A stretch of 35,292 nt of DNA, from IMG/VR virus record IMGVR_UViG_3300043570_002878, positions 1-35,292 of that record; one strand, given 5' to 3'. A model generated the notes under the pieces. It was not told where the DNA came from. It did not search any database and saw nothing but the letters and a program-made list of their open reading frames with translations. The position numbers and the translations under genes are program-made. The DNA is from a virus. This document shows, one piece after another, positions 9,348-35,292 of this stretch (positions are counted from its first letter, which is position 1; each line of letters begins with the position of its first letter).

Positions 9348-9968
9348 ATGATCCCTAAAATAATATGGCAAACTCATGAGTGGGAATTAGAGGATCTTCC
9401 AGATACTTTTAAGAAAAGTGTAGATAGCTGGAAAAATATGAATCCTACATGGGATTATAGATACACTAGTGCTAGAAAAAGATTAGAGCATATTAGAGAT
9501 TATGGCGGGGAAGAATTTTTAAAATTTTATAAAGACTGTAACAGACTTACTCAAGCAGATTTATGGAGATATGTAGTTTTATATAAATTTGGCGGGGTGT
9601 ACTCAGATCTAGATTGGGAATGTATTCGTCCTTTAGACGATATAATAGAAATAGAAAATGAAAAAAATCCAATAATTATTCATACATATATGGAAGATCA
9701 AAAAGATCCTTATAACAATAGTCTTATAGGGTCAGATGCTGGTCAACTAGTATTTAAAAAATTAATAGATGATGCTATAGGTAAGTTTAGATCTACCCCA
9801 GAAGCTAGAATTAACGAATTTTGTGGCTATAACTGTTGTCATAATAATGATAGAGAATGTAATGGTAGAAATGATTATCATTTAGGATATGAGTATTTTT
9901 CTAGACATTTAGAAGAGTATGCTTCTTTTATACTACCAAAACTTTGTTTAATTGCTAAGAGATGTTAG
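9348..9968 (+). CDS. Glycosyltransferase with DXD motif (OCH1 / Gly_transf_sug type), 206 aa
   Basis: Begins MIPKIIWQTHE, the standard opening of the DXD-sugar glycosyltransferase family. ADLWRYVVLYKFGGVYSDLD around residues 90-109 carries the acidic DLD that holds the metal and sugar nucleotide. Members transfer a sugar, often mannose- or galactose-like, from a nucleotide donor. The C-terminal part contains several Cys and His residues (CGYNCCHNND). Length is a little under the usual 230-250 aa, but the fold core is present. Probably glycosylates a surface component or virion protein. No ribosome-binding site; leaderless start. Confidence 0.82.
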   Translation: MIPKIIWQTHEWELEDLPDTFKKSVDSWKNMNPTWDYRYTSARKRLEHIRDYGGEEFLKFYKDCNRLTQADLWRYVVLYKFGGVYSDLDWECIRPLDDIIEIENEKNPIIIHTYMEDQKDPYNNSLIGSDAGQLVFKKLIDDAIGKFRSTPEARINEFCGYNCCHNNDRECNGRNDYHLGYEYFSRHLEEYASFILPKLCLIAKRC

Positions 9969-11164: not shown

Positions 11165-11944
11165 ATGAAACTTTCTATATTGCATCCAGACATTTGGTAT
11201 TTTGAAAACGCTATTCCAGAAGCAGAAAAATTTCTTTCTTTATTAGAGGACAATAAAAATATTACAAGCGTTATACCAGATTGGTCCGAATGGCGTGATA
11301 CTTATGCTAGAGGAGCAGATGAAGTAATTATCGATAAGCCCCTATCTGCTGGTGAAGGAGGGGCCCCCATGGGTGTAGATAAGTTTGTTGACTGGGATAT
11401 GTCAATAAATGATTATGGTAGAATTTGGCCAAGAATAGTACCAGATTCAGAAACCCACAATAAGGCATATCAAATATTAAAATTAATAGATTTACCATTT
11501 AAAAAAGTTTTAGATTATTATTGGTCACAAAATCCAGATTTTCCTAAACTTCAATACATTAGCAAAAACTATCCTATAAGAAAATATTCACCTGGAACAG
11601 CTATGCCAGTTCACGTAGACGCAACTGGTCTAGCTGGTACTACAGAGGATGATAAAATATCTATGGATTTAGCTGCTTTAATTTATTTAAATGACAAATA
11701 TACTGGCGGAGAACTTAATTTTGTTAATCTTGGAATTAGGTTTAAACCTTCTGCTGGAAGTATTGTTATTTTTGATGGAATAAAACATCAACACGAATCT
11801 ACTCTTATTGAATCTGGAAATAAAATATATATTCCTTTTTACATTCATACAAAATTTGGCTGGATTTCTTGTTTTAGAGAACCCGTAGAGGCTGGCGGTA
11901 GTCAAAATTTGTATCTTAATAAAGCACCTAGGTTGACAGACTAA
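11165..11944 (+). CDS. 2-oxoglutarate/Fe(II) dioxygenase, 259 aa
   Basis: Residues around 150 give MPVHVDATG with the iron-binding HVD, followed by IYLNDKYTGGELNF, a VIFDG strand, the distal His in KHQHEST and a Lys ten residues later for 2OG. The N-terminal 100 residues (IWYFENAIPEAEKFL, then a Trp-rich DWSEWRD) are shared in pattern with the truncated oxygenase at 35112, suggesting a sub-family. Leaderless start. Substrate unknown. Confidence 0.85.
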   Translation: MKLSILHPDIWYFENAIPEAEKFLSLLEDNKNITSVIPDWSEWRDTYARGADEVIIDKPLSAGEGGAPMGVDKFVDWDMSINDYGRIWPRIVPDSETHNKAYQILKLIDLPFKKVLDYYWSQNPDFPKLQYISKNYPIRKYSPGTAMPVHVDATGLAGTTEDDKISMDLAALIYLNDKYTGGELNFVNLGIRFKPSAGSIVIFDGIKHQHESTLIESGNKIYIPFYIHTKFGWISCFREPVEAGGSQNLYLNKAPRLTD

Positions 11945-16651: not shown

Positions 16652-17641
16652 ATGAATATTTCATTTTCTACGCCTATTGTTAACCTGAGAACTAATAATG
16701 GATACGGATATGCAAGTAAAAATATAATAAAATCTTTAAATAACTTAGGACACTTTACTCCATTTCAAGATCCAAAATCTAAATTACAATTAAATTTTTC
16801 ACAACCATCACATTTTAAATTACATAAAAATCAATATCAAATTAGTTATACACCATGGGAATCTACTGTAATTCCAAAAGATTGGAAATATTATATGGAT
16901 GCATGCGACGAAGTTTGGGTAACTTCAGATTGGTGTGCAAATGTATTTGAAGATAATGGTTTTAAGGTTTCTAATGTATACCCACACGGCATTGATCCTA
17001 TGTGGATACCAAATAGAAGAAAAGAAGAGGGTGTAATTAAATTTTTGCATATAGGAGAACCAGCACCAAGAAAAGCTGGACAAATGGTACTAGATGCATT
17101 CGGCAGCTTGTTTGGAAATAAAGAAGGATATTCATTAACCATTAAAGCAGATCAAATAAATACAACTAGAGTATATAACAATTATCTAGATAAAAATATT
17201 TTAGGTGTTCCAGATAAATATTACAACAATGTGTCTGTAATTACAGATGTTTTAAATGACGAAGAACTTGTAAACCTGTATCAGTCTCATGATGTTTTAG
17301 TATATCCAAGCTATGGAGAAGGATTTGGATTTATTCCACTGCAAGCACTAGCAACTGGCATGCCAACAATTTGTACAAGCGGCTGGGCGCATTACGAAAA
17401 ATATTTAGGTCCATTAAAATTAAAATCAGAACTAATAGATTCACCTTGGCCATTCCCACACGAAGGAAAAGTTTTTGAGCCAAACTATCAACACCTACTT
17501 GAACTTATGAGAGACGTTTCAATAAACTTTAATGCATATTCAGGATATTATTTTGCTCAGTCAACTAAAATACATAAAGATTATAATTGGAAACAGTTGA
17601 CTAAGAATTCATTTGATAAAATTTTAAAAAAACTTAATTAA
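16652..17641 (+). CDS. GT4-type glycosyltransferase (GT-B fold), 329 aa
   Basis: N-terminal GYGYASKNII is the usual glycine-rich start for this group. FLHIGEPAPRKAGQMVLDAF opens the C-terminal domain, and VYPSYGEGFGFIPLQALATG carries the conserved Glu pair that binds the nucleotide sugar. This is the family 1 / GT4 layout of bacterial glycosyltransferases. It probably adds a sugar to a cell-surface glycan or virion protein. The start lacks a strong ribosome-binding site (AGAAAGAATTT). Lies between the lysozyme-like gene and the reductase. Confidence 0.87.
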   Translation: MNISFSTPIVNLRTNNGYGYASKNIIKSLNNLGHFTPFQDPKSKLQLNFSQPSHFKLHKNQYQISYTPWESTVIPKDWKYYMDACDEVWVTSDWCANVFEDNGFKVSNVYPHGIDPMWIPNRRKEEGVIKFLHIGEPAPRKAGQMVLDAFGSLFGNKEGYSLTIKADQINTTRVYNNYLDKNILGVPDKYYNNVSVITDVLNDEELVNLYQSHDVLVYPSYGEGFGFIPLQALATGMPTICTSGWAHYEKYLGPLKLKSELIDSPWPFPHEGKVFEPNYQHLLELMRDVSINFNAYSGYYFAQSTKIHKDYNWKQLTKNSFDKILKKLN

Positions 17642-23136: not shown

Positions 23137-24744
23137 ATGGCAACAGTAGATAAAAACTTTAGAATTAAGAATGGTTTAGTTGTTGAGGGATCAACAGCTA
23201 CAGTAAATGGATCTAATATCCTTACTGAAAACTCACTAGAATTTATTCAAGATACCGTAGCGGCACAACTTGTAGACGGAACACATACAAATATTTCAGT
23301 AAGTTATAATGACACTACTGGAACAATTAGTTTAACTGGCGCAGTAACATACACAGACGAGCAAGCACAAGATGCCGTCGGTAATGCAGTCGGAACTGGA
23401 CTTTCATACAACGATACAACAGGTGCAATATCTGTTGACACATCCACAATTCAGGCTCGTGTCGCAGATGTATCTGACACTGAAATTGGATACCTTAATG
23501 GCGTAACATCTTCAATTCAGACACAATTAGACGATAAGTCAACTGCAAGCAAAACCGAAACATTAACAAATAAGACTTTAACATTACCAAACATAAATGA
23601 AAGCGTAGCCCTTACAGCAACCGCTACAGAACTTAACATTCTTGATGGTGCAACACTTTCTACAACAGAACTTAACTATGTAGATGGCGTAACCTCTTCA
23701 ATTCAAACACAATTAAACAATAAATTTGATTCAGCAAATGCTTCAACAACAAATATTTCAGAAGGCACAAACCTTTACTTTACAGACGAAAGAGCACAAG
23801 ATGCTGTAGGAAACTCTGTAGGCAATGGTCTTGATTATGATGATGCAACAGGAGCAATTTCTGTAGACCCTTCAGAGTTTACATTAAACTCTATCGGCGC
23901 ACCATCTGCAGCAGTAGCTTTAAACAATCAAAAGATTACTGGCCTTTTAACACCAACAGATTCAACAGATGCATCAACTAAAGGCTATGTTGACGGAGTA
24001 ATTTCAACAGAGGTATCAAATCGTAATACTGCAATTTCAACAGCAGTTAGCAATTTAGTAGACGGCGCACCAGACCTTCTTAATACTCTTAATGAATTAG
24101 CAGCAGCAATTAATGATGACGCTAACTACACAACAACTATTACGACAGCTCTAGGAACAAAAGCTCCTTTAGCATCACCAGCATTAACTGGAGTACCTAC
24201 TGCCCCAACAGCAGCAGCAGACACAAATACTACTCAAATAGCTACAACAGCTTTTGCTAAAGCAGAAGCAGACGCAGCACAGTCAGCAGCGGAAGCCACA
24301 GCATCAGGAGATGCAACATCAAAGGCTAACGCCGCTCAAGCAGCAGCAGAAGCCACAGCATCATCTGCTCTTTCTGGAGTAACTGCAGGAACCACAGCGT
24401 TTACAGCAGTAAATGTTAACTCAGTAGCTAAGCAAATTGCTGCAACCACAGGTAATATTGTTACCGCAGCCGCAACCACAGCTTATGCATGGGCAAAGGC
24501 TTCATACCGAAGCGGAGAATTCCTTGTTAAGTCAAAAAATGGAAATCACACAGAAGTTGCAAAAATTATGGTAACTCTAGACTCTTCAGATAACGTCTAT
24601 ATCACAGAATATGGAATGTCATCAACAAGTGGAGTTGCACTTCAAACAGTTTCAGCAGATGTAAGCGGAACAGATGTAAGAATTCGTGTAACACCTGCAA
24701 ATAACAATACCGAAGTATTAATCACTGGTACACTGTTAGTATAA
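23137..24744 (+). CDS. Long tail-fibre protein with repeats, 535 aa
   Basis: The start MATVDKNFRIKNGLVVEG is shared with the 24813 gene and is probably the attachment domain. Repeated segments follow: DAVGNAVGTGLSYND and DAVGNSVGNGLDYDD; ATELNILDGATL and TTELNYVDGVTS. An APLASPALTGVPTAP cassette, also present in the 25212 gene, leads to an Ala-rich coiled coil (AEADAAQSAAEATA). The last 90 residues form a compact beta domain that could bind the receptor. Confidence 0.82.
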   Translation: MATVDKNFRIKNGLVVEGSTATVNGSNILTENSLEFIQDTVAAQLVDGTHTNISVSYNDTTGTISLTGAVTYTDEQAQDAVGNAVGTGLSYNDTTGAISVDTSTIQARVADVSDTEIGYLNGVTSSIQTQLDDKSTASKTETLTNKTLTLPNINESVALTATATELNILDGATLSTTELNYVDGVTSSIQTQLNNKFDSANASTTNISEGTNLYFTDERAQDAVGNSVGNGLDYDDATGAISVDPSEFTLNSIGAPSAAVALNNQKITGLLTPTDSTDASTKGYVDGVISTEVSNRNTAISTAVSNLVDGAPDLLNTLNELAAAINDDANYTTTITTALGTKAPLASPALTGVPTAPTAAADTNTTQIATTAFAKAEADAAQSAAEATASGDATSKANAAQAAAEATASSALSGVTAGTTAFTAVNVNSVAKQIAATTGNIVTAAATTAYAWAKASYRSGEFLVKSKNGNHTEVAKIMVTLDSSDNVYITEYGMSSTSGVALQTVSADVSGTDVRIRVTPANNNTEVLITGTLLV

Positions 24745-24812: not shown

Positions 24813-25169
24813 ATGGCAACATTAGATAAAAACTTTAAAGTTAAGAATGGAATAAATGTCGCAGGAGATGCCACATTTGATTCTAACGTCGTATTAGGTT
24901 CAACCCCCCTTAGATTTGACACAACAACAAACAAACTACAGATCCAATTAAATGGAACCTGGAGTCCAATTGCATTTGTGGCAGATATTCCAGATATGGC
25001 AACAGAAATAGGCTTTATGGATGTTGGTCTGGCTATTGATTACAATGGTCTTCCAATCTATACAGTTCAGGCAAACGGAGTAAGTACAACAGCAACTAAA
25101 TTCGCAGACGGTGGAAACCCATCAACTTCAACATATGGGTTAACATTCGATTCTGGAGTTATAGTCTAA
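24813..25169 (+). CDS. Short fibre paralogue, 118 aa
   Basis: MATLDKNFKVKNGINVAG is nearly the same opening as in the 535-aa fibre, so it likely binds the same site on the virion. The rest is a small beta-rich domain (LQIQLNGTWSPIAF; an Asp-rich turn; TYGLTFDSGVIV). It may be a cap or a variant fibre tip. AGGGG lies about 15 bases before the ATG, a loose fit. A hairpin precedes the gene. Confidence 0.72.
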   Translation: MATLDKNFKVKNGINVAGDATFDSNVVLGSTPLRFDTTTNKLQIQLNGTWSPIAFVADIPDMATEIGFMDVGLAIDYNGLPIYTVQANGVSTTATKFADGGNPSTSTYGLTFDSGVIV

Positions 25170-25211: not shown

Positions 25212-27692
25212 ATGTCAACAGTAAGAATTCAAGTAAGACGAGGAACAGCATCAGAATGGACCTCAGCAAATCCTACATTAGCCGCAGGTGAACTAGGTGT
25301 TGAAACAGACACCAGAAAAATTAAGGTCGGATCTGGAAGCACAGCATGGACCAGCCTTTCATACATTGCAGCAGACTCACCATCAATTTCAGAAATTGCA
25401 CAAGATGCAATTAATGATGCCCTTTCAATGGGGTCAGGTCTTACAAAATCTTACAACGATGGCACAAACACAATTTCTCTTAATATTGATTCATCAGTTG
25501 TTGCACTTAGATCTTATGTCGATGATGAAGTAAATGGACTAACAAATACAGTACAATCAGATTACGTTTTGTTGTCAGACGTTGGCAATGCAGGTGGACC
25601 AGCAAAATTAGATGTCGATGGCAATTTATTAATTCCAAAATCAAGTATTATTCTTGAGGGCTCATCTGCAGACGCATATGAAACAACTCTAACAGTAACA
25701 AATCCTACAGCAGATAGAACAATTACATTTCCAAATGCTACAGGAACAGTAGCACTTATAACAGATATTGAAGAACTTGCACAGGATGCAGTAAATTCAG
25801 CTTTTACAACTGGAAGTGGTATTACTAAAGTTTATGACGATGGTGCAAATACAATAACAATTGGTATAGATACAGGATATATTGCAACAACAGAAGCATT
25901 AAGATCAGTATTATCATCATTAAATTACCACCAAGCAGTAGAAGTTGCAACAACAGCAAGTTTAAATGCAACTTATGCAGCAGGATCAGCAGATCAAGCA
26001 GGTGGAACTGGTATTGGCGCAACTTTAACTATGAATGCAAATGGTGCTATATCTATAGACGGAGTTGCATTAGATTTAAATTCAAGAGTATTAGTTAAAG
26101 ATCAAGCTAATCAATTACACAACGGTATATATACAGTAACAACTGTAGGTGGACCAAGCGCAGCCGCTGTTTTAACAAGAGCTCTAGACTACAATAATTC
26201 AGAAGAAAAAACACCAGCAGATGTTGCACAAGGTGACGTAGTTTTTGTAATAACTGGTTCAACAAATCTTTTAAAACAATTTTCACAAATTTATGAAGGA
26301 ACTAATGCCGATAAATCAGTAAGAATTGGAACAGACAATATTGATTTTACACAAATTTCAGGAACCGCAACTATTACAGCTGGTGACGGAATTATTAAAA
26401 CTGGAGATGAATTACGTGTAGATCAAGACATGTTTTTAACACTATCTGTTGCTGCTAGTACATATTTATCATCAGCAAATGCAGCAAGTACTTATTTAAC
26501 ACAAACAGATGCAGGTACAACTTATTTAACACAGGCAAACGCAGGTACAACCTATTTAACCCAAGCAAATGCTGGCACAACATATTTAACTCAAGCAAAT
26601 GCAACAAGTACTTATTTTGCAAAAAATACAACTGAAATTGGCAATGCAAATATTTCTTCTGGTGCAGCAATTGATAAAACTAAAATATCAGGAACTGCCG
26701 TAACTCAGGGAGATACTGCCACAGTAACAAATGCAATGCTTTCTGGATCAATTGCTAATGATAAGCTTTCTAATTCAACAATTTCAGGAAAAGCACTTGG
26801 AACTAATTTAGACACATTAACAATTGGAACTGGTTTAACTGGTACATCTTATAATGGTGGAGCAGCAACAACAGTTGCAATAGATTCAACAGTTGCCACT
26901 TTAACTGGAACACAAACTTTAACTAACAAGACTTTAACTTCACCAGTAATTAATACACCTATTGGACTTACAAGTGGAGATGTTGGATTAGCAAACGTTG
27001 ATAATACGTCAGATGCTAATAAGCCAGTATCATCAGCAACACAGACAGCTCTTGACCTTAAGGCCCCATTGGCCTCACCAGCACTTACTGGAGTCCCAAC
27101 AGCGCCTACTGCAGCAGCAGCAACTAATACCACACAAATTGCTACTACAGAGTTTGTTCGTGCAGAAGTTGCAGCACTTGTAAATAGTGCAGGTTCAACA
27201 CTTGATACTCTTGGAGAAATTGCAACCGCTCTTGGAAATGATGCAAACTTAAGCACAACACTTACAAACAGCATTGCATTAAAAGCCCCACTTGATTCAC
27301 CAACATTTACTGGAACAGTAACAGTTGCAGCAGCAGGTGTAGCATTTACAGATGGAACTCAAACTAAAGAAGGCGTTCCTTCAAGAACTCCAATTATTTC
27401 AAAAACTGCAAACTACACATTGTCTGCAGCATCTGAAAGAGACTCATTAATAGAGGTAGATTCTACAAGCCCAGTAACAATAACAATCCCAACTAACTCA
27501 GCAGTTGCTTATCCAATTGGAACAACTCTAGATATACTTGGTACAAATACTGGCTTAATTACAATTGCAGGAGATACAGGCGTAACAGTAAATGCTACTC
27601 CTGGATTAAAACTACGGACACAATGGTCATCCGCAACACTATTTAAGAGAGCAGAAAACTCTTGGGTAGTATACGGCGACCTGAAGTCATAA
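25212..27692 (+). CDS. Very long tail fibre with Mtd-type N-terminus, 826 aa
   Basis: The N-terminal 50 residues (VRIQVRRGTASEWTSANP, LAAGELGVETDTRKIKVG) match the N-terminal domain of major-tropism-determinant-type fibres, which binds the virion. Two DAINDALSMGSGL-like modules, a coiled region, and four tandem TTYLTQANAG repeats (about residues 417-470) follow. The APLASPALTGVPTAP cassette is shared with the 535-aa fibre. A compact C-terminal beta domain follows. Probably the main receptor-binding fibre. AAGGGG precedes the start. Confidence 0.83.
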   Translation: MSTVRIQVRRGTASEWTSANPTLAAGELGVETDTRKIKVGSGSTAWTSLSYIAADSPSISEIAQDAINDALSMGSGLTKSYNDGTNTISLNIDSSVVALRSYVDDEVNGLTNTVQSDYVLLSDVGNAGGPAKLDVDGNLLIPKSSIILEGSSADAYETTLTVTNPTADRTITFPNATGTVALITDIEELAQDAVNSAFTTGSGITKVYDDGANTITIGIDTGYIATTEALRSVLSSLNYHQAVEVATTASLNATYAAGSADQAGGTGIGATLTMNANGAISIDGVALDLNSRVLVKDQANQLHNGIYTVTTVGGPSAAAVLTRALDYNNSEEKTPADVAQGDVVFVITGSTNLLKQFSQIYEGTNADKSVRIGTDNIDFTQISGTATITAGDGIIKTGDELRVDQDMFLTLSVAASTYLSSANAASTYLTQTDAGTTYLTQANAGTTYLTQANAGTTYLTQANATSTYFAKNTTEIGNANISSGAAIDKTKISGTAVTQGDTATVTNAMLSGSIANDKLSNSTISGKALGTNLDTLTIGTGLTGTSYNGGAATTVAIDSTVATLTGTQTLTNKTLTSPVINTPIGLTSGDVGLANVDNTSDANKPVSSATQTALDLKAPLASPALTGVPTAPTAAAATNTTQIATTEFVRAEVAALVNSAGSTLDTLGEIATALGNDANLSTTLTNSIALKAPLDSPTFTGTVTVAAAGVAFTDGTQTKEGVPSRTPIISKTANYTLSAASERDSLIEVDSTSPVTITIPTNSAVAYPIGTTLDILGTNTGLITIAGDTGVTVNATPGLKLRTQWSSATLFKRAENSWVVYGDLKS
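26455..26628 (+). repeat. Tandem repeat coding for TYLTQANAG units
   Basis: About 30-bp units encode TYLTQANAGT and close variants, with silent changes between copies. Such repeats can expand or shrink by recombination and set fibre length. Confidence 0.75.
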
Positions 27693-27704: not shown

Positions 27705-29036
27705 ATGAGTAAAAGATCTGGTAGAAAATCCCAAGCAGCAAACGATTTCTTAGAGCCAAAACCTGTAGAAAGCTTAACCGCTACAGATGTAGGAACATCT
27801 AGGACATTTAATAACGGAGCAGCAAATTTATCATGGTCTCTACCAGCTGGCTCACCAGAAGCTACAAGTTATACAATAACAACAACTCCATCATCAACAA
27901 CTGAAACTACATCTAATACATCTTTTCAGTTTACAGGACTATCTTCAAATACATCATATACATTTTCAGTAGTTGGAAGCAATGCAGCAGGATCTTCTGC
28001 TGCAACAGAGTCTAGCTCTGTATTAATTACTACTGTGCCAGCAAAGCCAGTTTCTGTAAGCGCAGCATCACCAAGCGCTGATCAAGACGTAGTATCCTGG
28101 TCAGCAGGAGCAACTGGAGGTAAAGCAATTACTAGCTTTACAGTTGTTTCATCAGATGGACCTTCATATCCAAACTCTACGTCACCAAAAACTATTTCAG
28201 AAACAGCAAATACATCACAAACATATACTATTTATGCAATTAATGATAATGGAACATCACAAGGAGAAACTACTAATTCAGTTACAACAACAGCACCTTA
28301 CTTCCCACCGTTCTTCCCTTACTTCCCACCGTTCTTCCCGTTCTTCCCGTTCTTCCCACCTTACTTCCCACCGTTCTTCCCGTTCTTCCCGTTCTTCCCA
28401 CCATACTTCCCACCGTTCTTCCCGTTCTTCCCGTTCTTCCCACCGTTCTTCCCACCGTTCTTCCCACCAAGATTCGGTCCTTACTTCCCACCGTTCTTCC
28501 CACCAAGATTCGGTCCTTACTTCCCAGCATGTGTTGATGGAGATACTTTAATATTAACTAGCGAAGGCCCAAAGCCAGCAAGAAAAATTAAAGTTGGAGA
28601 TAAATTGTTAACAGTTGATGCTCTAGGTTTAATAAATCAACCTAACTCAACTCCTCTTGAAATAAACGTTCAAGACTTAATAATAACCAACCTAGCACAC
28701 ACAGAGGTTACAAATGTGATAGTCTCAGACAAGCAAGACAGAGTTTACTTCAATGGAAACAGCGAAGCTCAATTCACAGAGACTCACCCAATATTTGTAA
28801 AGCGTAATAACGAATATCGTGTAGTCGAGGCAGGTACAGTTCAAGAGGGAGATATATTAATAAATATCTCAGTAGACAACTTATCTGAATCACTAGATAT
28901 GAGTAAGATTATCTCAGAAGTTGAAGTATCTAAAGTAGATAAAATAACTTTAGAATTAGCAAAAGATGTTTATACATTTAGTTGCAGCCCACATAACTGG
29001 TACTTTGCAGGAGATATATTAACTCACAATAAGTAA
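27705..29036 (+). CDS. Fn3 - Phe/Pro/Tyr repeat - Hint domain protein, 443 aa
   Basis: Three parts are visible. Residues about 20-110 and 112-196 are two fibronectin-III-like domains (NLSWSLPAGS...SYTFSVVGSNAAG; DVVSWSAG...TYTIYAINDNG). Residues 198-274 are almost only Phe, Pro and Tyr, built from YFPPFFPFFPFFPP units plus two RFG interruptions. Residues 276-443 are a Hint domain: catalytic Cys in CVDGDTLIL, block B TETHPIFV, and the end YFAGDILTHNK with the His-Asn pair. The protein ends one residue after HN, so there is no C-extein. The Hint part may self-cleave or attach the rest to a nucleophile. Last gene before the oxygenase operon. Confidence 0.85.
   Translation: MSKRSGRKSQAANDFLEPKPVESLTATDVGTSRTFNNGAANLSWSLPAGSPEATSYTITTTPSSTTETTSNTSFQFTGLSSNTSYTFSVVGSNAAGSSAATESSSVLITTVPAKPVSVSAASPSADQDVVSWSAGATGGKAITSFTVVSSDGPSYPNSTSPKTISETANTSQTYTIYAINDNGTSQGETTNSVTTTAPYFPPFFPYFPPFFPFFPFFPPYFPPFFPFFPFFPPYFPPFFPFFPFFPPFFPPFFPPRFGPYFPPFFPPRFGPYFPACVDGDTLILTSEGPKPARKIKVGDKLLTVDALGLINQPNSTPLEINVQDLIITNLAHTEVTNVIVSDKQDRVYFNGNSEAQFTETHPIFVKRNNEYRVVEAGTVQEGDILINISVDNLSESLDMSKIISEVEVSKVDKITLELAKDVYTFSCSPHNWYFAGDILTHNK
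28296..28528 (+). repeat. Tandem repeat coding for the Phe/Pro/Tyr tract
   Basis: About 230 bp of 9-bp and 42-bp units using only TTC, CCA/CCG/CCT/CCC and TAC codons, so the plus strand is strongly pyrimidine-rich. Almost no synonymous drift in Phe (TTC) and Tyr (TAC) suggests recent expansion or selection on the DNA. Confidence 0.85.
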
Positions 29037-29049
29037 TAGATTAATAATC

Positions 29050-29073
29050 AAAACCCCCCAAAAGGGGGTTTTG
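29050..29073 (+). terminator. Intrinsic terminator after the Hint gene
   Basis: AAAACCCCC and GGGGGTTTT pair around a short loop, followed by T-rich sequence. Ends the fibre transcript right before the oxygenase promoter. Confidence 0.88.
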
Positions 29074-29079
29074 GTATTC

Positions 29080-29108
29080 TTGACAATATATATATAATTA
29101 TATATAAT
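29080..29108 (+). promoter_or_regulatory. Perfect consensus promoter of the oxygenase operon
   Basis: TTGACA (29080-29085), 17 bp, TATAAT (29103-29108). Matches sigma70/SigA consensus at all 12 positions with ideal spacing, the strongest promoter in the window. Confidence 0.9.
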
Positions 29109-29131: not shown

Positions 29132-29851
29132 ATGTCAGATATTTATGATATAGACAGCAATCCTTGGTTTACAAAAGATAGGTCAGAATCAACTTCCTTT
29201 AGAGTAGAAAGATCTTTTGAAAATATTAAAGTTTTAAATCCAGGAATTGGATTAAATATCTATCAGTCAGCTATCACAGATGATGTTTGTAAAAAATCAA
29301 TTAAAATATTAGAAGATAAATTAACTAATGGTAAAATTTATAAATGGTCAGAAGCACAAGTTACAACTTCCGACAAACCAGTAAAATCTGCAAGAGACTG
29401 TGTTGATTTTAAATTTAAGCCAGAAAACCTTGGACAAAGAAATGAAAACAATTCAGAACTTTTAGATATGCATCAATCAATATATGATGTATTAAAAAAA
29501 TGTATAGATGATTATTGTAAATATTGGGGAATTAATGTAATATACTATGAAGCATTTAACTTTGTAAAATACACAAGCCCAGGACAACATTTTAGGGTTC
29601 ATGCAGATCATGGACCGCATTATAATTGTACAGTATCTGCTGTAATTTATTTAAACGATGATTACGAAGGCGGAGAAATAGCGTTTCCAAGATTAGACAA
29701 ATTAGTATACAAGCCAAAACGTGGCGATGTAGTAATATTCCCATCAAACTATATATACGAGCACTCTTCAGAACCAATGATTTCTGGAGACAAGTACTCA
29801 GTTGTAGTTATGATGGATATTAACCTATTAGGACATAAGGAGAACAAATAA
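29132..29851 (+). CDS. 2-oxoglutarate/Fe(II) dioxygenase, 239 aa
   Basis: First gene of the operon. HFRVHADHGPHYN gives the HxD iron ligands, then VIYLNDDYEGGEIAF, VVIFPSNYIYEHSSEP with the distal His, and a Lys near DKYSVVVM for 2OG. Very similar in layout to the next gene, so the pair arose by duplication. Prolyl-4-hydroxylase-like; substrate unknown. Unlike many genes here it has a real leader of about 17 bases. TAATG overlap with the next gene. Confidence 0.88.
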   Translation: MSDIYDIDSNPWFTKDRSESTSFRVERSFENIKVLNPGIGLNIYQSAITDDVCKKSIKILEDKLTNGKIYKWSEAQVTTSDKPVKSARDCVDFKFKPENLGQRNENNSELLDMHQSIYDVLKKCIDDYCKYWGINVIYYEAFNFVKYTSPGQHFRVHADHGPHYNCTVSAVIYLNDDYEGGEIAFPRLDKLVYKPKRGDVVIFPSNYIYEHSSEPMISGDKYSVVVMMDINLLGHKENK

Positions 29852-30507
29852 TGAATAAACAAACTTGGTCAAGCGCAGAAGATTTAGGATCAGGAATTTG
29901 GGTATATAGAGATGTTTTAACAAAAGACCTAGACATTATTAATAGACTAGAGTCAAATTTAGATGGCAATACTCCAGGATGGACATGGCAGCCAGCCTAT
30001 GTAGGATATCAAGAAAGAATGCCAGAATACAGAGAATGCGTTGATTTTAAATTTAAAAAATCAGATATAGCTAATGACAAATCTCCTATATCATTAAAAA
30101 TGCAAGAATTGTGGCAAGATTGCTATGACAGACAAGCACCAGCAGTAGATGACTATTGCAAAAAACATAATATACATAGACTACAATATTGGGAAGCTTT
30201 TAATTTTATTAAATATGTTCCTGGTCATCATTTCATGGAGCACCATGATCATGGATTTTCATATAACTGCACAGTCTCTTTGGTAGGTTATATTAACGAT
30301 GATTACGAGGGCGGAGAATTATATTTTAGACTACAAGATTTAAATATTAAACCAAGGGCTGGCGACTTATATATATTCCCTTCAACATACATGTACCCCC
30401 ATCAGGCTAAAGTAGTTAAGTCTGGAACTAAATATTCTTTGGTTACAATGCTAGATTACAGCGCAAAGTTTCATACACCAGCAATGTATGAAGACACTGG
30501 TGACTAA
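29851..30507 (+). CDS. 2-oxoglutarate/Fe(II) dioxygenase, 218 aa
   Basis: HHFMEHHDHGFSYNC supplies HxD, then VGYINDDYEGGELYF, LYIFPSTYMYPHQAK with the distal His, and a Lys in TKYSLVTM. Shares CVDFKFK and the EAFNFIKY region with the preceding protein, showing recent duplication. The start overlaps the upstream stop as TAATG, and its stop overlaps the following start likewise. Confidence 0.88.
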   Translation: MNKQTWSSAEDLGSGIWVYRDVLTKDLDIINRLESNLDGNTPGWTWQPAYVGYQERMPEYRECVDFKFKKSDIANDKSPISLKMQELWQDCYDRQAPAVDDYCKKHNIHRLQYWEAFNFIKYVPGHHFMEHHDHGFSYNCTVSLVGYINDDYEGGELYFRLQDLNIKPRAGDLYIFPSTYMYPHQAKVVKSGTKYSLVTMLDYSAKFHTPAMYEDTGD

Positions 30508-31226
30508 TGCCGATATTAAAAGCATATAAAACAAACCCAAATTCATTTATATTGGATCCAATTTCAGTAAAAAGAGACTGGATGGATGAAACTCCTGACG
30601 GACACGCATATAGGTGTTTCCCAGTAACTATGGCCAATACTATAGGCTGGACGCTGTCCTGTCCAGTAGACGTTTCATTTATATGGGATGGGAAAATAGA
30701 CACAACCCCAGACAGAGTTAAAATTTTGTCAGGAGAGCAATATTGCTATACTGGAAGAGGGCAGGGCTCAGTAAGTTTTAATACAGGACTTATATTAAAA
30801 TCAGAAAAAAATATAAGCGTACTAAGCATTACTCCACAAAATTATTTTTATGAAGATTTTGAGGTAATGTCATCTTTAATAAGTACATCTTTTTTTAATG
30901 TAGATTTTCCATTAGCAATTAAAGTTAAAATTCCAAACAAAGAAATTACTATAAAAGCTGGAACACCAATTGCTACAATTATTCCAATTTCTCTTACTTC
31001 TTTAAAAGATGAATCTATAGAAATAAATAATTTTATATCTACTGATGAATATAGAGATAAATTAAAAAAATATGGAGACGCAGCACAAGTAATAAATCAA
31101 AGTGGAAATTGGACAGATTGGTACAGAGATGCTATTGACGAAACTGGTAATTCTATTGGTGAGCACGAAGTTAAGTCTTTAAAGCTTAAAGTAATAGATA
31201 ATACAAAAGAACAAAACAATGCTTAA
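30507..31226 (+). CDS. DUF6065-like protein, 239 aa
   Basis: The N-terminal half has KRDWMDETPDGHAYRCFPVTMANTIGW, close to the DUF6065 pattern (W-M-D-x-T-P, then Y-R-C-x-P, then A-N-x-x-G-W). The C-terminal half is beta-rich (IPNKEITIKAGTPIATIIPI). The family is uncharacterised; a double-stranded beta barrel is likely. TAATG overlap at the start puts it inside the oxygenase operon, suggesting it helps bind or present the substrate. A second relative follows. Confidence 0.7.
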   Translation: MPILKAYKTNPNSFILDPISVKRDWMDETPDGHAYRCFPVTMANTIGWTLSCPVDVSFIWDGKIDTTPDRVKILSGEQYCYTGRGQGSVSFNTGLILKSEKNISVLSITPQNYFYEDFEVMSSLISTSFFNVDFPLAIKVKIPNKEITIKAGTPIATIIPISLTSLKDESIEINNFISTDEYRDKLKKYGDAAQVINQSGNWTDWYRDAIDETGNSIGEHEVKSLKLKVIDNTKEQNNA

Positions 31227-31947
31227 TAAAATCAAATTTGTTTCTAACAGGCCGTGGTTAAATAAAAATAGTGTATCTAAGCCAATGCCTGCAATTAAAG
31301 AAATTCCAGATTGGTTTAGAAAAGCAGATAGGTTTGCAATTAACCCAATTACAAAAGATTATTGGCAAGGACCAGACGGGGGAAAAATTCCTACGTGGAA
31401 AGCTTGCCCAGCAATATTTGATATATTAGGTACAGGGTATGTTTTAAAAACGCCATGTGATATTAAATTTTATTTAAAAAATAATAAAATGTCTGTTGAA
31501 ATTAAAGAACCTAAATTTAAAGATTTTTGTTCTGAAAGACAACCAATGCCACAATTCGTACACCCACAAGGATACTACAAAGAACATTTTGCCTGGTATC
31601 CAGATTGGGCAATAGAACTACCAGAAGGATATAGCGCTTTATACACAACACCATTTAATAGATTTGATTTACCATTTTTAATGACAACTGGAATTGTAGA
31701 TAACGATAAAATTAATTTGCCAGGAACTATGCCATTTTTTATTGTTAAAGGGTTTGAAGGCGTAATTCCAGCAGGAACACCATACGCACAAATAATTCCA
31801 TTTAAAAGAGAAGACTGGGATTCAGACATTATAATAGAAAACCCAAATAACTTGCATAAAAAAAATCAAGAAAATAGCAATAAATATAGAGTTAAAGATG
31901 GTGGAGTATATAAAAATGAAGTTTGGTCTAAAAGAGTTTACGAATAG
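31219..31947 (+). CDS. Second DUF6065-like protein, 242 aa
   Basis: Starts MLNKIKFVSNRPWLNKN. It shares the end pattern VIPAGTPYAQIIPF and the placement of Cys-Pro (WKACPAIFDIL) with the preceding protein, so I see it as a distant paralogue; the family assignment is less certain. The middle (DWAIELPEGYSALYTTPFNRFDLPF) is rich in aromatic residues, as in ligand-binding barrels. Overlaps the previous gene by 8 bp. No catalytic motif seen. Confidence 0.6.
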   Translation: MLNKIKFVSNRPWLNKNSVSKPMPAIKEIPDWFRKADRFAINPITKDYWQGPDGGKIPTWKACPAIFDILGTGYVLKTPCDIKFYLKNNKMSVEIKEPKFKDFCSERQPMPQFVHPQGYYKEHFAWYPDWAIELPEGYSALYTTPFNRFDLPFLMTTGIVDNDKINLPGTMPFFIVKGFEGVIPAGTPYAQIIPFKREDWDSDIIIENPNNLHKKNQENSNKYRVKDGGVYKNEVWSKRVYE

Positions 31948-31964: not shown

Positions 31965-32636
31965 ATGGATAAAGAATTAGCAAACGGTGCACATAATTGG
32001 GAAAATAGAGTATCAATAACCCCTCCAGGATTTTTTGGGACTTCTGCAGATCAAATACAATCAAGAGAAAATTTTATGACAGAAGAAGAAAAAATATTTT
32101 TGCTAAATGCAGCAAAATCAATTAATGAATGGGACAAGACAGAAACTCATTACAATGATAATGGAATTGTAATATATGATTCATCTTATTGGGACAATAG
32201 AGTTGCATCAAGACCAATTTTAGATTCAATAGATCCAGAAATTTCTATTGTTATTGAAAACCTTGTAAAAAGACTTAAAGTAGAAGTTGATAATTTTTTT
32301 AATGTCGATGCAAAACCCACTAGTCCAGCTATAGTAAGATGGATGCCTGGATATAAACAGGAACCGCATGCAGATAAACAATTACAAAATGGAGAGCCAA
32401 ATGATTTTCCTTGGTACGATTTAGCTGGATTATTTTACCTTAATGATGACTACGAAGGCGGAGAACTATATTTTTTAAATCAAGGAGTAGAGTTTAAACC
32501 AAAACCAGGGGCAGCTTATTTTTTCCCAGGAGATGTTGGATATAGTCATGGAGTTAAAGAAATTACAAGTGGAATTAGATATGTAATTCCATTTTTTTGG
32601 ACAATATTAGAGCACACTGGAGATAAAAAACCATGA
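31965..32636 (+). CDS. 2-oxoglutarate/Fe(II) dioxygenase, 223 aa
   Basis: QEPHADKQ gives HxD; LFYLNDDYEGGELYF, FKPKPGAAYFFPG, YSHGVKEI with the distal His, and GIRYVIPFFW with the 2OG-binding Arg complete the pattern. Most like the 33442 protein, with which it shares the GEPNDF/GEPNAF region. No ribosome-binding site; the TATAAT box at 31953-31958 suggests a leaderless mRNA in addition to read-through. Stop overlaps the next start. Confidence 0.88.
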   Translation: MDKELANGAHNWENRVSITPPGFFGTSADQIQSRENFMTEEEKIFLLNAAKSINEWDKTETHYNDNGIVIYDSSYWDNRVASRPILDSIDPEISIVIENLVKRLKVEVDNFFNVDAKPTSPAIVRWMPGYKQEPHADKQLQNGEPNDFPWYDLAGLFYLNDDYEGGELYFLNQGVEFKPKPGAAYFFPGDVGYSHGVKEITSGIRYVIPFFWTILEHTGDKKP

Positions 32637-33445
32637 ATAAAGAATTAGAAATTATAAAGATTTATCCAAAAATACATATATATAGAAATGTTTTTAATGA
32701 TGTAGATTTATTTTTGGAAAAAGCAAAAAAATGTGTTGTTTGGGAAGAGTGGTATACGTTTGGGACGATGCTGCCTCTTCAAGAAGCGCCAATTAGATTT
32801 ACATCATTTCCAACAAGAGAAGAATATATAAATTCTAGACGTTGGCAAGTAGAAACCGACAACGATGTTTTAAGGGCGGATTTAACAAAAGAATTAGGAG
32901 AAATCTTTTATGACGTAACTAGTAATTTTTTAAATTCTTATACAGACATATCTTTTAATAATTGGGTAAAATACCCAGCATCAATAAATAAATATTTTGA
33001 AGGTGCGGGAATAACAGATAATTATGCTATGAACTACCATACAGATTTTGTACAATTAGAAAAAGATGCACCAGGAATTAAATTTGGAATTACTACAACA
33101 TTTTATTTAAATGATGACTATGAAAATGGGGAAATTTGTTTTAAAGTTGGTGATGATATATTGTCTCACAAACCTAAAAAAGGAGACGTAATAGTATTTC
33201 CTTCCTCACCACCATACTATCATGCAGTTAGAAGAGCAGACGGCACAGATAGGTATATGATTAGATCATTTTGGCAATTTGATTACGAAGGATCACCAGA
33301 ATGGATAGAAAATGAAAATAAATATGGTAAAGAAATTTGGGATAAAATGGAAAAAGACAGAATTAAAGAAAATAGAAATGTAGGTCAAATTAATGCTGAA
33401 GAATTACATAAATTGTTTGGCAAAAATAATGGATTGCATTTATGA
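32633..33445 (+). CDS. 2-oxoglutarate/Fe(II) dioxygenase, 270 aa
   Basis: MNYHTDFVQ (HxD), TFYLNDDYENGEICF, VIVFPSSPPYYHAVRR with the distal His, and RYMIRSFWQ with the Arg. The C-terminal 45 residues are a charged helix. Paralogue of the 34277 gene, sharing YPKIHIYRN-like and YHTDF segments. ATGA overlap with the previous gene and with the next. Substrate unknown. Confidence 0.88.
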   Translation: MNKELEIIKIYPKIHIYRNVFNDVDLFLEKAKKCVVWEEWYTFGTMLPLQEAPIRFTSFPTREEYINSRRWQVETDNDVLRADLTKELGEIFYDVTSNFLNSYTDISFNNWVKYPASINKYFEGAGITDNYAMNYHTDFVQLEKDAPGIKFGITTTFYLNDDYENGEICFKVGDDILSHKPKKGDVIVFPSSPPYYHAVRRADGTDRYMIRSFWQFDYEGSPEWIENENKYGKEIWDKMEKDRIKENRNVGQINAEELHKLFGKNNGLHL

Positions 33446-34284
33446 AGCAATGTACTTGTGGAAGATCAAAAGCTTACCCATATTGTGACGGAACACATAA
33501 AAAGAAAAAGGAGTCATTAATGAAAAACGGAATGATAGATGTTTTAGATAGTAGCAAATTTATTATTTTACAAGATGAAGAAATTCCAGAAAGTAAAGCT
33601 GGAGTACTTGGAGTATATACTAATAAAATTGTAGAAATACCTAATTTTATAGACCCAGAAATTGTTCCAAAAATGATTAATTTTTTTGAAAATTGTAATG
33701 TTGATTGGGGAGATATTGCGTTTTATGGTTCCTCTGGAAAAGGAATTATGACAGATTCTGAGACAATGAAAAAATTTGAATTACCAGATGGATTTTTTGA
33801 TAAGTTAAAAAATAAATATCAAGAAACAGTAGAATTAGTATTTGGTAGAGAAGTTAGAGCAAATACCTCTCATGCACAAAAATGGGATGTTGGAGGGTTT
33901 GCAAGCCCACATTCAGATAATTCAGATAATAAAGGAGAGCCTAATGCTTTTGCAATAAATAAATATGTAGGAATACTTTATCTTAATGATGATTACGAAG
34001 GCGGAGAATTGTATTTTTGTGACAAAGATAACGAAATGAAAACCTATTTATCTTTTAAGCCAAACGTTTATTCTTATTATGTTTTCCCTGGAGGATATGA
34101 AAATATTCACGGTGTCTCAGAAATAACCAAAGGTACAAGATACACCATGGTTTCATTTTGGGATTACGCAGATTCAGTTTACGATCAAGAAACATTAGAT
34201 AGATGGGAAGAAGAAGAAAAGCAAGTTAGAATTGAACAGGCAAAGCAAAAAGAAGAATGGAATAAAGGAAACAAATATGCTTGA
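33442..34284 (+). CDS. 2-oxoglutarate/Fe(II) dioxygenase with N-terminal CDGSH iron-sulfur motif, 280 aa
   Basis: Residues 4-19 read CTCGRSKAYPYCDGTH, which fits the CDGSH [2Fe-2S] motif exactly (C-x-C-x2-S-x3-P-x-C-D-G-T-H). A Lys-rich linker follows. The oxygenase part has SPHSDNSD (HxD), LYLNDDYEGGELYF, IHGVSEI with the distal His and TRYTMVSFW with the Arg. An in-frame ATG at 33520 with AAGGAGT in front could yield the oxygenase alone (254 aa). ATGA overlap at the start. The iron-sulfur part might donate an electron to keep iron reduced. Confidence 0.85.
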   Translation: MKQCTCGRSKAYPYCDGTHKKKKESLMKNGMIDVLDSSKFIILQDEEIPESKAGVLGVYTNKIVEIPNFIDPEIVPKMINFFENCNVDWGDIAFYGSSGKGIMTDSETMKKFELPDGFFDKLKNKYQETVELVFGREVRANTSHAQKWDVGGFASPHSDNSDNKGEPNAFAINKYVGILYLNDDYEGGELYFCDKDNEMKTYLSFKPNVYSYYVFPGGYENIHGVSEITKGTRYTMVSFWDYADSVYDQETLDRWEEEEKQVRIEQAKQKEEWNKGNKYA

Positions 34285-35128
34285 GGGTACAGATTTTTAT
34301 AAAATAGCTCCAAAGATTATTGTTTACAAAAATGTCTTCAATAATGATTATTTTATGGAATGTTTTGAACACATTAAGTCTATTGATAATATGTGGGTAG
34401 ACTGGTACATATATGGCAAGCAGACAAACTTTCCAGTTAAAGATACTAGACCACACAATGTTCCAGGAGTTTTGCCCTATAATGAATTTAAACAAGATAT
34501 TAATTTTGACGAAGTCACAGATGAAAAGCTTAAATTTTTCTATAACTACATAGAAGATGTTTTTTATAATACGACCAAGCACTATTTTGAGCTTACTGGA
34601 GAGACTCCACCAGAAGGCTCTCCGATAAGCCACTTTACCGCAACCCTACTTAAGTATATACCTCATGAGAGTTTTGAACCAGCTGGATCAGTAATGGGAT
34701 ACCACACAGATTTTCAGCAAGAAAAAACCGAAGAGCCAGGCTTTAAATTTTTTGTAACATGCTGCATGTATTTAAATCATGATTATGATGGAGGACAAGT
34801 ATCCTTTAAGATATTTCAAGATGAATCAAATGATCCAAATGCAGAGTATGTAAAACATATGTACCAACCAGAATTTGGCGATGTAACAATTTTTCCATCA
34901 AGAGCACCATACTATCACGGAGTAAAGACTGTAACAAATGGAATAAAGTATTTTATTAGAAGTTTTTATATGTATAGCTATCCAGGCTCGGAAGCATGGC
35001 ATGCAAACAAAGATAAATATGGCGAAGAGCTATGGAAACAGATGGATAGAGAAAGACAGATAGCTGATCTAAAATCTGGTAAAAATGAAAGAAAAGATGC
35101 AGACGAAAAAAATGGAAGAAATGGATAG
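34277..35128 (+). CDS. 2-oxoglutarate/Fe(II) dioxygenase, 283 aa
   Basis: The start MLEGTDFYKIAPKIIVYKN at 34277 is chosen because AAAGGAAAC lies before it and it overlaps the upstream stop by 8 bp; a longer frame from 34232 lies within the previous gene. MGYHTDFQQ (HxD), CMYLNHDYDGGQVSF, VTIFPSRAPYYHGVKT with the distal His, and KYFIRSFY. Paralogue of the 32633 gene, with a larger insert. Charged C-terminal helix. Confidence 0.87.
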   Translation: MLEGTDFYKIAPKIIVYKNVFNNDYFMECFEHIKSIDNMWVDWYIYGKQTNFPVKDTRPHNVPGVLPYNEFKQDINFDEVTDEKLKFFYNYIEDVFYNTTKHYFELTGETPPEGSPISHFTATLLKYIPHESFEPAGSVMGYHTDFQQEKTEEPGFKFFVTCCMYLNHDYDGGQVSFKIFQDESNDPNAEYVKHMYQPEFGDVTIFPSRAPYYHGVKTVTNGIKYFIRSFYMYSYPGSEAWHANKDKYGEELWKQMDRERQIADLKSGKNERKDADEKNGRNG

Positions 35129-35292
35129 CGTAAATCTAATCCAATACGGTAAGATACATTACTATGAAAATGTTATTACTGATCCCGACTACTTAATTAA
35201 TTTAATAGAGCTTTCTGACGGAGGCTTAAATGAAAACACCAGTATCCCTGCGTGGAAAGAATGGGCGGCAAGCGGAGATACAGAGTATGTAT
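35112..35292 (+). CDS. N-terminus of a further 2OG/Fe(II) oxygenase, cut by the window edge
   Basis: About 60 codons are present, starting MEEMDSVNLIQYGKIHYYEN (a second Met at 35121 is also possible). YGKIHYYENVITDPDYLINLI followed by a Trp-rich IPAWKEWAASGD matches the N-terminal part of the 11165 oxygenase (IWYFENAIPEAEKFL, IPDWSEWRD). The catalytic half lies beyond the window. Overlaps the upstream gene end by 17 bp. Confidence 0.65.
   Translation, partial: MEEMDSVNLIQYGKIHYYENVITDPDYLINLIELSDGGLNENTSIPAWKEWAASGDTEYV

Follow-up and report, generated by a model that had tools for sequence, protein, structure and literature searches.

Hydroxylation makes the Pro- and Tyr-rich repeats of mussel foot proteins and plant extensins adhesive or rigid, and in hedgehog proteins a sterol-recognition region behind the Hint domain is a defining feature. 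The residue roles in Hint domains, comprising Cys1, the block B Thr and His, and the C-terminal His-Asn, are set out in the excerpt of PMC4031507 used here, and class 3 inteins are described, in an excerpt of PMC7664689, as having no Cys or Ser at position 1 and carrying a WCT motif. Dioxygenases are common in cyanophages, and the excerpt of PMC3037559 used here records proposed roles in the 2OG pool and in DNA repair. We describe here a phage gene that joins a pair of Fn3 domains, an aromatic-proline tract and a C-terminal Hint domain, and a cassette of 2OG-Fe(II) dioxygenases that follows it and whose presence varies with the proline content of the tract. The gene lies in the window, by which we mean the whole stretch of viral DNA analyzed, 35,292 nucleotides in length (Table 1).

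Table 1. Features of the fibre-gene and dioxygenase region, in window positions.
Feature	Position	Strand	Basis or remark
Tail-fibre-like gene	23137-24744	+	upstream context
Small ORF between the tail-fibre-like genes	24813-25169	+	
Tail-fibre-like gene, with Mtd_N	25212-27692	+	upstream context
Fn3-Fn3 / aromatic-proline tract / Hint gene	27705..29036	+	ATG start, 443 aa
Two Fn3 domains, residues ~20-196	27762..28292	+	Pfam, AF2, structure matches, family alignment
Phe/Pro/Tyr tract, 77 residues (198-274)	28296..28526	+	grammar (xF-P1-2)n
Predicted Hint domain, BIL type A-like	28530..29030	+	profile, AF2, residue set
Putative Hint catalytic site, Cys276	28530	+	
Putative Hint catalytic site, Thr358/His361	28776-28787	+	
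Putative Hint catalytic site, His441-Asn442	29025-29030	+	
Lys443, one-residue C-extein	29031..29033	+	
Terminator-like hairpin	29049-29073	+	between fibre gene and O1
Perfect TTGACA-17-TATAAT	29080-29108	+	before dioxygenase cassette
O1, 2OG-Fe(II) dioxygenase (PF13640), core	29132..29851	+	Pfam 5e-13
O2, 2OG-Fe(II) dioxygenase (PF13640)	29851..30507	+	Pfam 9.5e-12
D1, DUF6065 protein	30507..31226	+	Pfam 1.2e-31
D2, phrog_7084 protein, DUF6065 relative	31219..31947	+	
O3, 2OG-Fe(II) dioxygenase	31965..32636	+	
O4, 2OG-Fe(II) dioxygenase	32633..33445	+	
O5, 2OG-Fe(II) dioxygenase	33442..34284	+	N-terminal CDGSH-type stretch
O6, 2OG-Fe(II) dioxygenase	34232..35128	+	
Start of a further ORF	35085..35292	+	cut by window end

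The first-pass annotation, made from the sequence alone, proposed an adhesin in which two Fn3-like domains are joined to a Hint domain by a tract of almost nothing except Phe, Pro and Tyr, unlike collagen, and this architecture is borne out. Pfam fn3 matches residues 37-104 (E=1.2e-9), and an AF2 model built with 16 family members contains two beta-sandwiches over residues ~20-196 (pLDDT mostly ~86-97) that tandem Fn3 structures in the PDB, titin included, match at Z 14-15; the profile covers the first domain, and membership of the pair rests on the predicted structure. A conserved segment precedes the pair in the family alignment. The tract is unstructured in the model, with pLDDT below 50 over most of residues 209-273, and the Hint domain is confident from about residue 275 (pLDDT mostly ~90).

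Within the tract, 73 of the 77 residues are Phe, Pro or Tyr (34 F, 33 P and 6 Y), the remainder being two Arg and two Gly, and with two Gly in 77 residues there is no Gly-X-Y pattern. Given the amino-acid make-up of the window, the binomial probability of such a density is ~2e-59 per start, and none of the other window ORFs of at least 40 aa approaches it. The DNA of the tract consists of tandem 42-bp repeats (97% matches), and this repetition, together with a family of at least 114 non-redundant proteins, argues that the tract did not arise by chance. Across the family the FFP-type tracts keep to a strict pattern of residue pairs with F in second place (FF 1228, YF 198, HF 58 and SF 26), set apart by one (843) or two (961) Pro, or by more in three instances. 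A second tract chemistry occupies the same place, with motifs such as FTPFGF, SFTPYSFTP or FSPFRVFGF, as seen in those Fn3 and PASTA members compared that score zero with the FFP detector (L144 is an exception), and in Fn3 members these tracts contain 10-18% proline. Codon usage within the window tract is distinctive, with TTC at 34/34 Phe codons as against 14/157 in 12 other window genes, and CCG at 13/33 Pro codons as against 5/183 in other window genes. A similar bias is seen across 71 family proteins, where TTC accounts for 2292/2695 Phe codons in tracts and 195/687 outside; avoidance of T runs, translation and repeat homogenization are candidate causes.

Scans of IMG/VR, with the best 80 matches at most taken from each Fn3 or Hint scan, recovered at least 170 viral loci, which yield at least 114 proteins after clustering at 95%. 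By Pfam, the Fn3 pair occurs in most of them and a PASTA domain in a minority; PASTA is also found in another gene that these phages carry behind the dioxygenase array. Neither the Fn3 part nor the Pro-poor-type Hint has a match in named phages at the thresholds used, and named phages contribute distant Hints alone, in Erwinia and Dickeya phages. One of these, Dickeya phage AD1, is a jumbo phage whose gp108 (L326:1520-2956) has a collagen-like repeat and a near-C-terminal Hint (THEH, HN-T). The FFP pattern was found in none of the four genomes searched. A cellular origin was considered and rejected, since a genome-collection scan gave one full-length match and the other 77 loci match the Fn3 part and are tract-free by the tract detector; the full-length match is a 3.2-kb contig in a Chitinophagaceae MAG (L173), most likely a viral contig that was mis-binned. 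The window has a GC content of 35.6%, and its ribonucleotide reductase is closest to those of Streptomyces phages (65%), which together with the PASTA domains suggests that the host may be actinobacterial.

Of the seven 2OG-Fe(II) dioxygenases that the window encodes, six lie 3' of the tract gene, and the second and third of these six are separated by two genes of the DUF6065 type. All seven score above the profile cut-off and the HxD...H motif is invariant (7/7), and as enzymes O1-O6 are unremarkable representatives of an established superfamily. Among PDB entries, the joint profile of the seven matches prolyl 3-hydroxylase 1 best (1.8e-12), followed by PKHD-type enzymes, prolyl 4-hydroxylases and the lysyl hydroxylase LH3. 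The ORF cut by the window end has a longer counterpart in L001 (17381-18019) that matches an HMM derived from the window dioxygenases. We also note that O5 opens with a CDGSH-type iron-binding stretch (PF09360, 5.1e-7), an unusual fusion, and that genes of the phrog_7084/DUF6065 type to which D2 belongs usually lie near dioxygenases; a dUTPase is the best fold match of D2, with a Z of 9.5 that is too weak to name a function. Upstream are the seventh dioxygenase (11165-11944) and two glycosyltransferase-like genes (9348-9968 and 16652-17641), and glycosylation of hydroxylated residues by the latter is conceivable. The hairpin and promoter between the fibre gene and O1, which are found in 6 of 10 relatives compared, the six closest, indicate that the cassette is probably its own transcription unit. 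The position of the cassette behind a terminator and with its own promoter speaks against simple co-transcription in an operon with the fibre gene, and would fit a catalytic cassette serving a structural gene.

Linkage between the cassette and the tract gene is evident in both directions. Among the 81 Fn3 groups, 66 had at least 5 kb of downstream sequence, and in 46 of these at least three dioxygenases lie within 8 kb downstream; at least three lie upstream in 1 of the 46 with at least 5 kb available on that side (these counts omit loci with short flanks and fragments that have the Fn3 part alone). The 26 groups with a full 8 kb to either side average 0.0 dioxygenases upstream and 5.0 downstream. 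The array, defined as three or more dioxygenases, accompanies 46/51 tracts with at least 20% Pro and 1/15 with less (66 groups with at least 6 kb), and an earlier cut on FP dipeptides gave 42/46 and 5/20. An orthologue of O1 or O2 (at least 44% identity) is downstream of 48/50 Pro-rich and 0/15 Pro-poor tract genes (65 groups with at least 7 kb); both the 20% and the 44% cut-offs were chosen after seeing the data. Scanning in reverse from O1, using the best 80 of at least 578 relatives, places a tract upstream in 49/51 loci with at least 3 kb of upstream sequence, or 33/34 after 95% clustering, and the tract detector fires in 1 of the 78 genome-collection loci, L173.

The departures from this pattern are few. 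Among Pro-rich members without the array, L036, L038 and L050 have O1/O2 all the same, L140 has D1-D2-O3 with further dioxygenases upstream instead, and L048_1182 is a second gene, the main gene of that phage being the one with the cassette; L100 has four dioxygenases beside a Pro-poor tract. Dioxygenases located elsewhere in the phages of this family, the Pro-poor ones included, number 0-5 per record. Mapped on a tree built from the Fn3 part, tract type switches 7 times and array presence 8 times, and the Pro-poor pair L155/L161 is nested among Pro-rich relatives. Supported branches provide three independent contrasts, of which on average 1.8 agree, 0 oppose and 1.1 show no difference; with so few contrasts the test cannot reach significance, and relatedness may explain much of the association. 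Against the linkage, the O1 orthologue of L316/L317 (66% identity) lacks a same-strand tract upstream. Behind some Pro-poor tract genes there are tandem HKFF...LDNDL paralogues with invariant His and Arg (L121:3379-5371, L152:3795-5083, L164:14354-16538 and L124:10535-11826) that look dioxygenase-like by eye, and for which no relative was found by profiles against PDB, Pfam, PHROGs and O1. The notion that Pro-poor phages have a dioxygenase array of their own was not borne out by these profiles.

The C-terminal domain has the predicted fold that the first reading assigned to it. Structure prediction gives Z scores of 17.8 with T. thermophila BIL2, 17.5 with C. thermocellum BIL (27% identity in the structure comparison) and 17.1 with hedgehog, and a profile of 25 family Hints has C. 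thermocellum BIL (2lwy) as its best PDB match (E=1.8e-11); the Pfam Intein_splicing match at residues 308-442 is sub-threshold. The window copy has every one of the expected key residues (Cys276, T358-E-T-H361 and H441-N442). The earlier statement that there is no C-extein was nearly right and needs amending by one residue, as Lys443 follows Asn442. By each feature tested the predicted domain is BIL type A-like, having the Hint fold, Cys1, block B Thr/His and His-Asn, with no Cys, Ser or Thr at +1, which is occupied by Lys443 and followed by a stop. An intein was rejected because the +1 residue is Lys and the protein ends there, leaving neither a second extein nor a +1 nucleophile, and a class 3 intein because Cys1 is present and Ile occupies the place of the Trp (block B counted from TETHPIF); the Cys of block F and the Thr preceding His-Asn, also part of the class 3 comparison, are both present. 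A hedgehog protein was rejected because the sterol-recognition region is missing and the protein stops one residue past the Hint, and a polymorphic toxin, or toxin delivery by a pretoxin Hint, because only Lys443 lies beyond the domain; the PT-HINT matches seen in 10/25 members reflect the fold.

An alignment of the 70 complete Hints shows Cys (59) or Ser (11) at position 1 and His (36), Gln (24) or Glu (10) at block B position 10, with Lys directly behind the last pair in 44. The full catalytic set is present in 25/70; 24 have Cys1 and His-Asn without the block B His, 10 have Cys1 and neither the block B His nor His-Asn, and 11 have neither Cys1 nor His-Asn, such that Cys1 and/or His-Asn is gone in 21. 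The fold is kept in the 45 with an incomplete set, and the most conserved columns, N75, D108 and D24, include no catalytic position. Of the 49 Hints that keep both Cys1 and His-Asn, 41 have a C-extein of one residue. In the window's clade the catalytic residues are invariant (19/19), which is weak evidence, as 60/168 columns are equally invariant. Orthologues of O1 are 46-95% identical to the window O1, and the Hints 24-89% to the window Hint. Hint dN/dS is 0.08-0.43 and mostly below 0.2 in close relatives, indicating purifying selection. A Hint is present in 70 of the 99 complete proteins; of the 29 without one, 18 carry at least four Cys within their final 60 residues, while 71/75 Fn3 members are Cys-free over residues 1-190; L165:6165-7025, with an FCP/FFP tract and no Hint, has ten Cys in its last 60. 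The DNA of L093 and L006 is 94-100% identical to the window up to ~28200, 67-79% identical across most of the Hint and 89-97% identical again past ~29080, a module swap that marks the Hint as an exchangeable tip. No support was found for conversion of the main gene by its PASTA paralogue or the reverse, as Hints on the same contig are no more alike than those on different contigs. The dioxygenase cassette, which the first-pass annotation did not include, is a more consistent companion of the tract than the Hint is.

The proposal that the C-terminal end cleaves itself and passes the N-terminal part to a nucleophile stands as a possibility for the window copy, with its BIL/hedgehog-type fold, full residue set, purifying selection in close relatives and phage tail-region setting, but does not extend to the family as a general mechanism, given the incomplete sets, the Hint-less members and the exchange between near-identical phages. 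Taken as a covalent anchor, Cys276 would form a thioester from which a host or virion nucleophile, or the Lys amine following Asn cyclization, takes the Fn3-tract arm and the Hint is freed. Retention of the complete set in the window copy and in 25/70 Hints, the BIL as best profile match and the prevalence of the one-residue C-extein favor such an anchor, but the 45 Hints without part of the set and the 29 members without a Hint oppose it and no partner nucleophile is known, and we consider it possible, with the chances falling short of even. The Hint could instead be a structural tip or receptor-binding module with vestigial catalysis, its exchange reflecting host-range diversification. Its replacement in L093 and L006 and the non-catalytic nature of the best conserved columns agree with this, but Cys1 persists in 59/70 and Cys1 with His-Asn in 49/70, and the catalytic residues are invariant in the window's clade, albeit in company with many other columns; on balance we think this somewhat unlikely.

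Similar caution applies to the enzymes, which could act elsewhere, on the 2OG pool, nucleotides, sugars or other proteins, with the link to the tract being conserved gene order. The proposed cyanophage roles (in the excerpt of PMC3037559), the separate promoter and the small number of independent contrasts are all compatible with other substrates, although the nearest matches of the enzyme profile are protein hydroxylases, with prolyl 3-hydroxylase 1 first, and the presence of the array follows tract proline content inside one protein family, including at the nested L155/L161 pair; we would not be greatly surprised if the substrates were others, without regarding it as the probable outcome. 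The tract might also be kept mainly as DNA, as a repetitive joint for swapping C-terminal modules, for which its departure from the codon use of the rest of the window, the 42-bp tandem repeats and the left edge of the Hint swap within or near the tract could be cited. However, the same amino-acid grammar persists despite mixed codons in the family (403 TTT and 2292 TTC), and Y, H or S is also met at position 1, both of which point to selection on the protein, and we judge this explanation improbable.

The reading that we prefer, to which we would give an even chance, is that the gene encodes a tail-region fibre with a phage-hydroxylated proline arm and an exchangeable Hint tip that is able to form a thioester in the window copy. 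In an actinophage-like freshwater phage, the Fn3 pair would form the base, facing the tail, the (xF-P or xF-PP)n repeat an extended arm, and the BIL type A-like Hint the exchangeable C-terminal tip. Placement in the virion, and with it this polarity, is a guess from the tail-fibre-like neighbors, as no cultured phage in the collection searched has the Fn3 part. The cassette core O1-O2-D1-D2-O3 would hydroxylate the prolines of the arm during infection, by which a very hydrophobic repeat could become a usable extended arm that is stiffer, more soluble or sticky in water. The window Hint would probably form a thioester at Cys276, releasing or transferring the arm, and in many relatives this chemistry would have been lost, with the tip being structural or replaced by a Cys-rich tail. 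Of this reading, the architecture, the repeat pattern, the two-way linkage, the tie to proline content and the module exchange are observed, and hydroxylation, orientation on the virion and cleavage are predicted.

A more ambitious version, which we find unlikely as a whole, is that these phages encode a full hydroxylated-polymer pathway, made up of the (xF-P1-2)n repeat, a dedicated set of dioxygenases acting at multiple distinct prolines, and a thioester-forming Hint or a Cys-rich end, that yields covalently joinable fibres. The core O1, O2 and O3 would be assisted by two DUF6065-type helpers and variable extra dioxygenases, and the fibres would be joined to the host envelope, to the virion or to each other, with the ends traded between phages; viruses would then have their own equivalent of the wet adhesives that are rich in hydroxyproline.

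We found no description of the protein family, of DUF6065 or of an FFP-repeat phage protein in the open PMC literature, and as far as that literature was searched three things are new: the repeat of aromatic residues and proline, the association of this repeat with a conserved core of dioxygenases, and C-terminal ends that are either a Hint or Cys-rich. If the tract is the substrate, it provides a concrete target for the dioxygenases of many uncultured freshwater phages, and the abundance of 2OG dioxygenases in aquatic phages might perhaps be explained by the phages' own proteins and not by host metabolism; it would also constitute a phage protein-modification pathway for fibre making, built on a repeat unlike that of collagen and with potential as a material. 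Whether thioester chemistry operates on a phage fibre tip is a question now testable on one small protein.

The Hint resembles BIL type A domains (2lwy; 6y75/6tmm) in fold, Cys1, block B Thr/His and His-Asn, but is found at the extreme C-terminus with one residue behind it, on an aromatic-proline tract and in a phage, and it shares with the hedgehog Hog domain (1at0) a C-terminal Hint (Z 17.1) with Cys1 and block B Thr/His. AD1 gp108 and the proteins of the Erwinia SNUABM phages, which are annotated as 'virion structural protein', likewise have a fibrous repeat and a near-C-terminal Hint (27% identity over the Hint), whereas AD1 gp108 has a Gly-X-Y repeat, another N-terminal part and, in the AD1 sequence, a longer C-extein starting with Thr; it is a parallel showing that a fibrous repeat and a Hint have been combined more than once. 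Cyanophage 2OG-Fe(II) oxygenases belong to the same superfamily and also occur several to a genome, with at most ~30% identity to O1 among the matches listed. Phe dominates here in a way that sets the tract apart from mussel foot proteins and extensins, to which we claim no sequence relation. As in collagen with P3H1 and P4H, a proline-rich repeat protein is accompanied by 2OG-Fe(II) hydroxylases of the same superfamily, although here hydroxylation is predicted, Gly-X-Y is replaced by aromatic residues and several enzymes stand in tandem. By analogy, the likeness to hydroxyproline-rich adhesive and collagen chemistry is a mechanical one and not one of descent.
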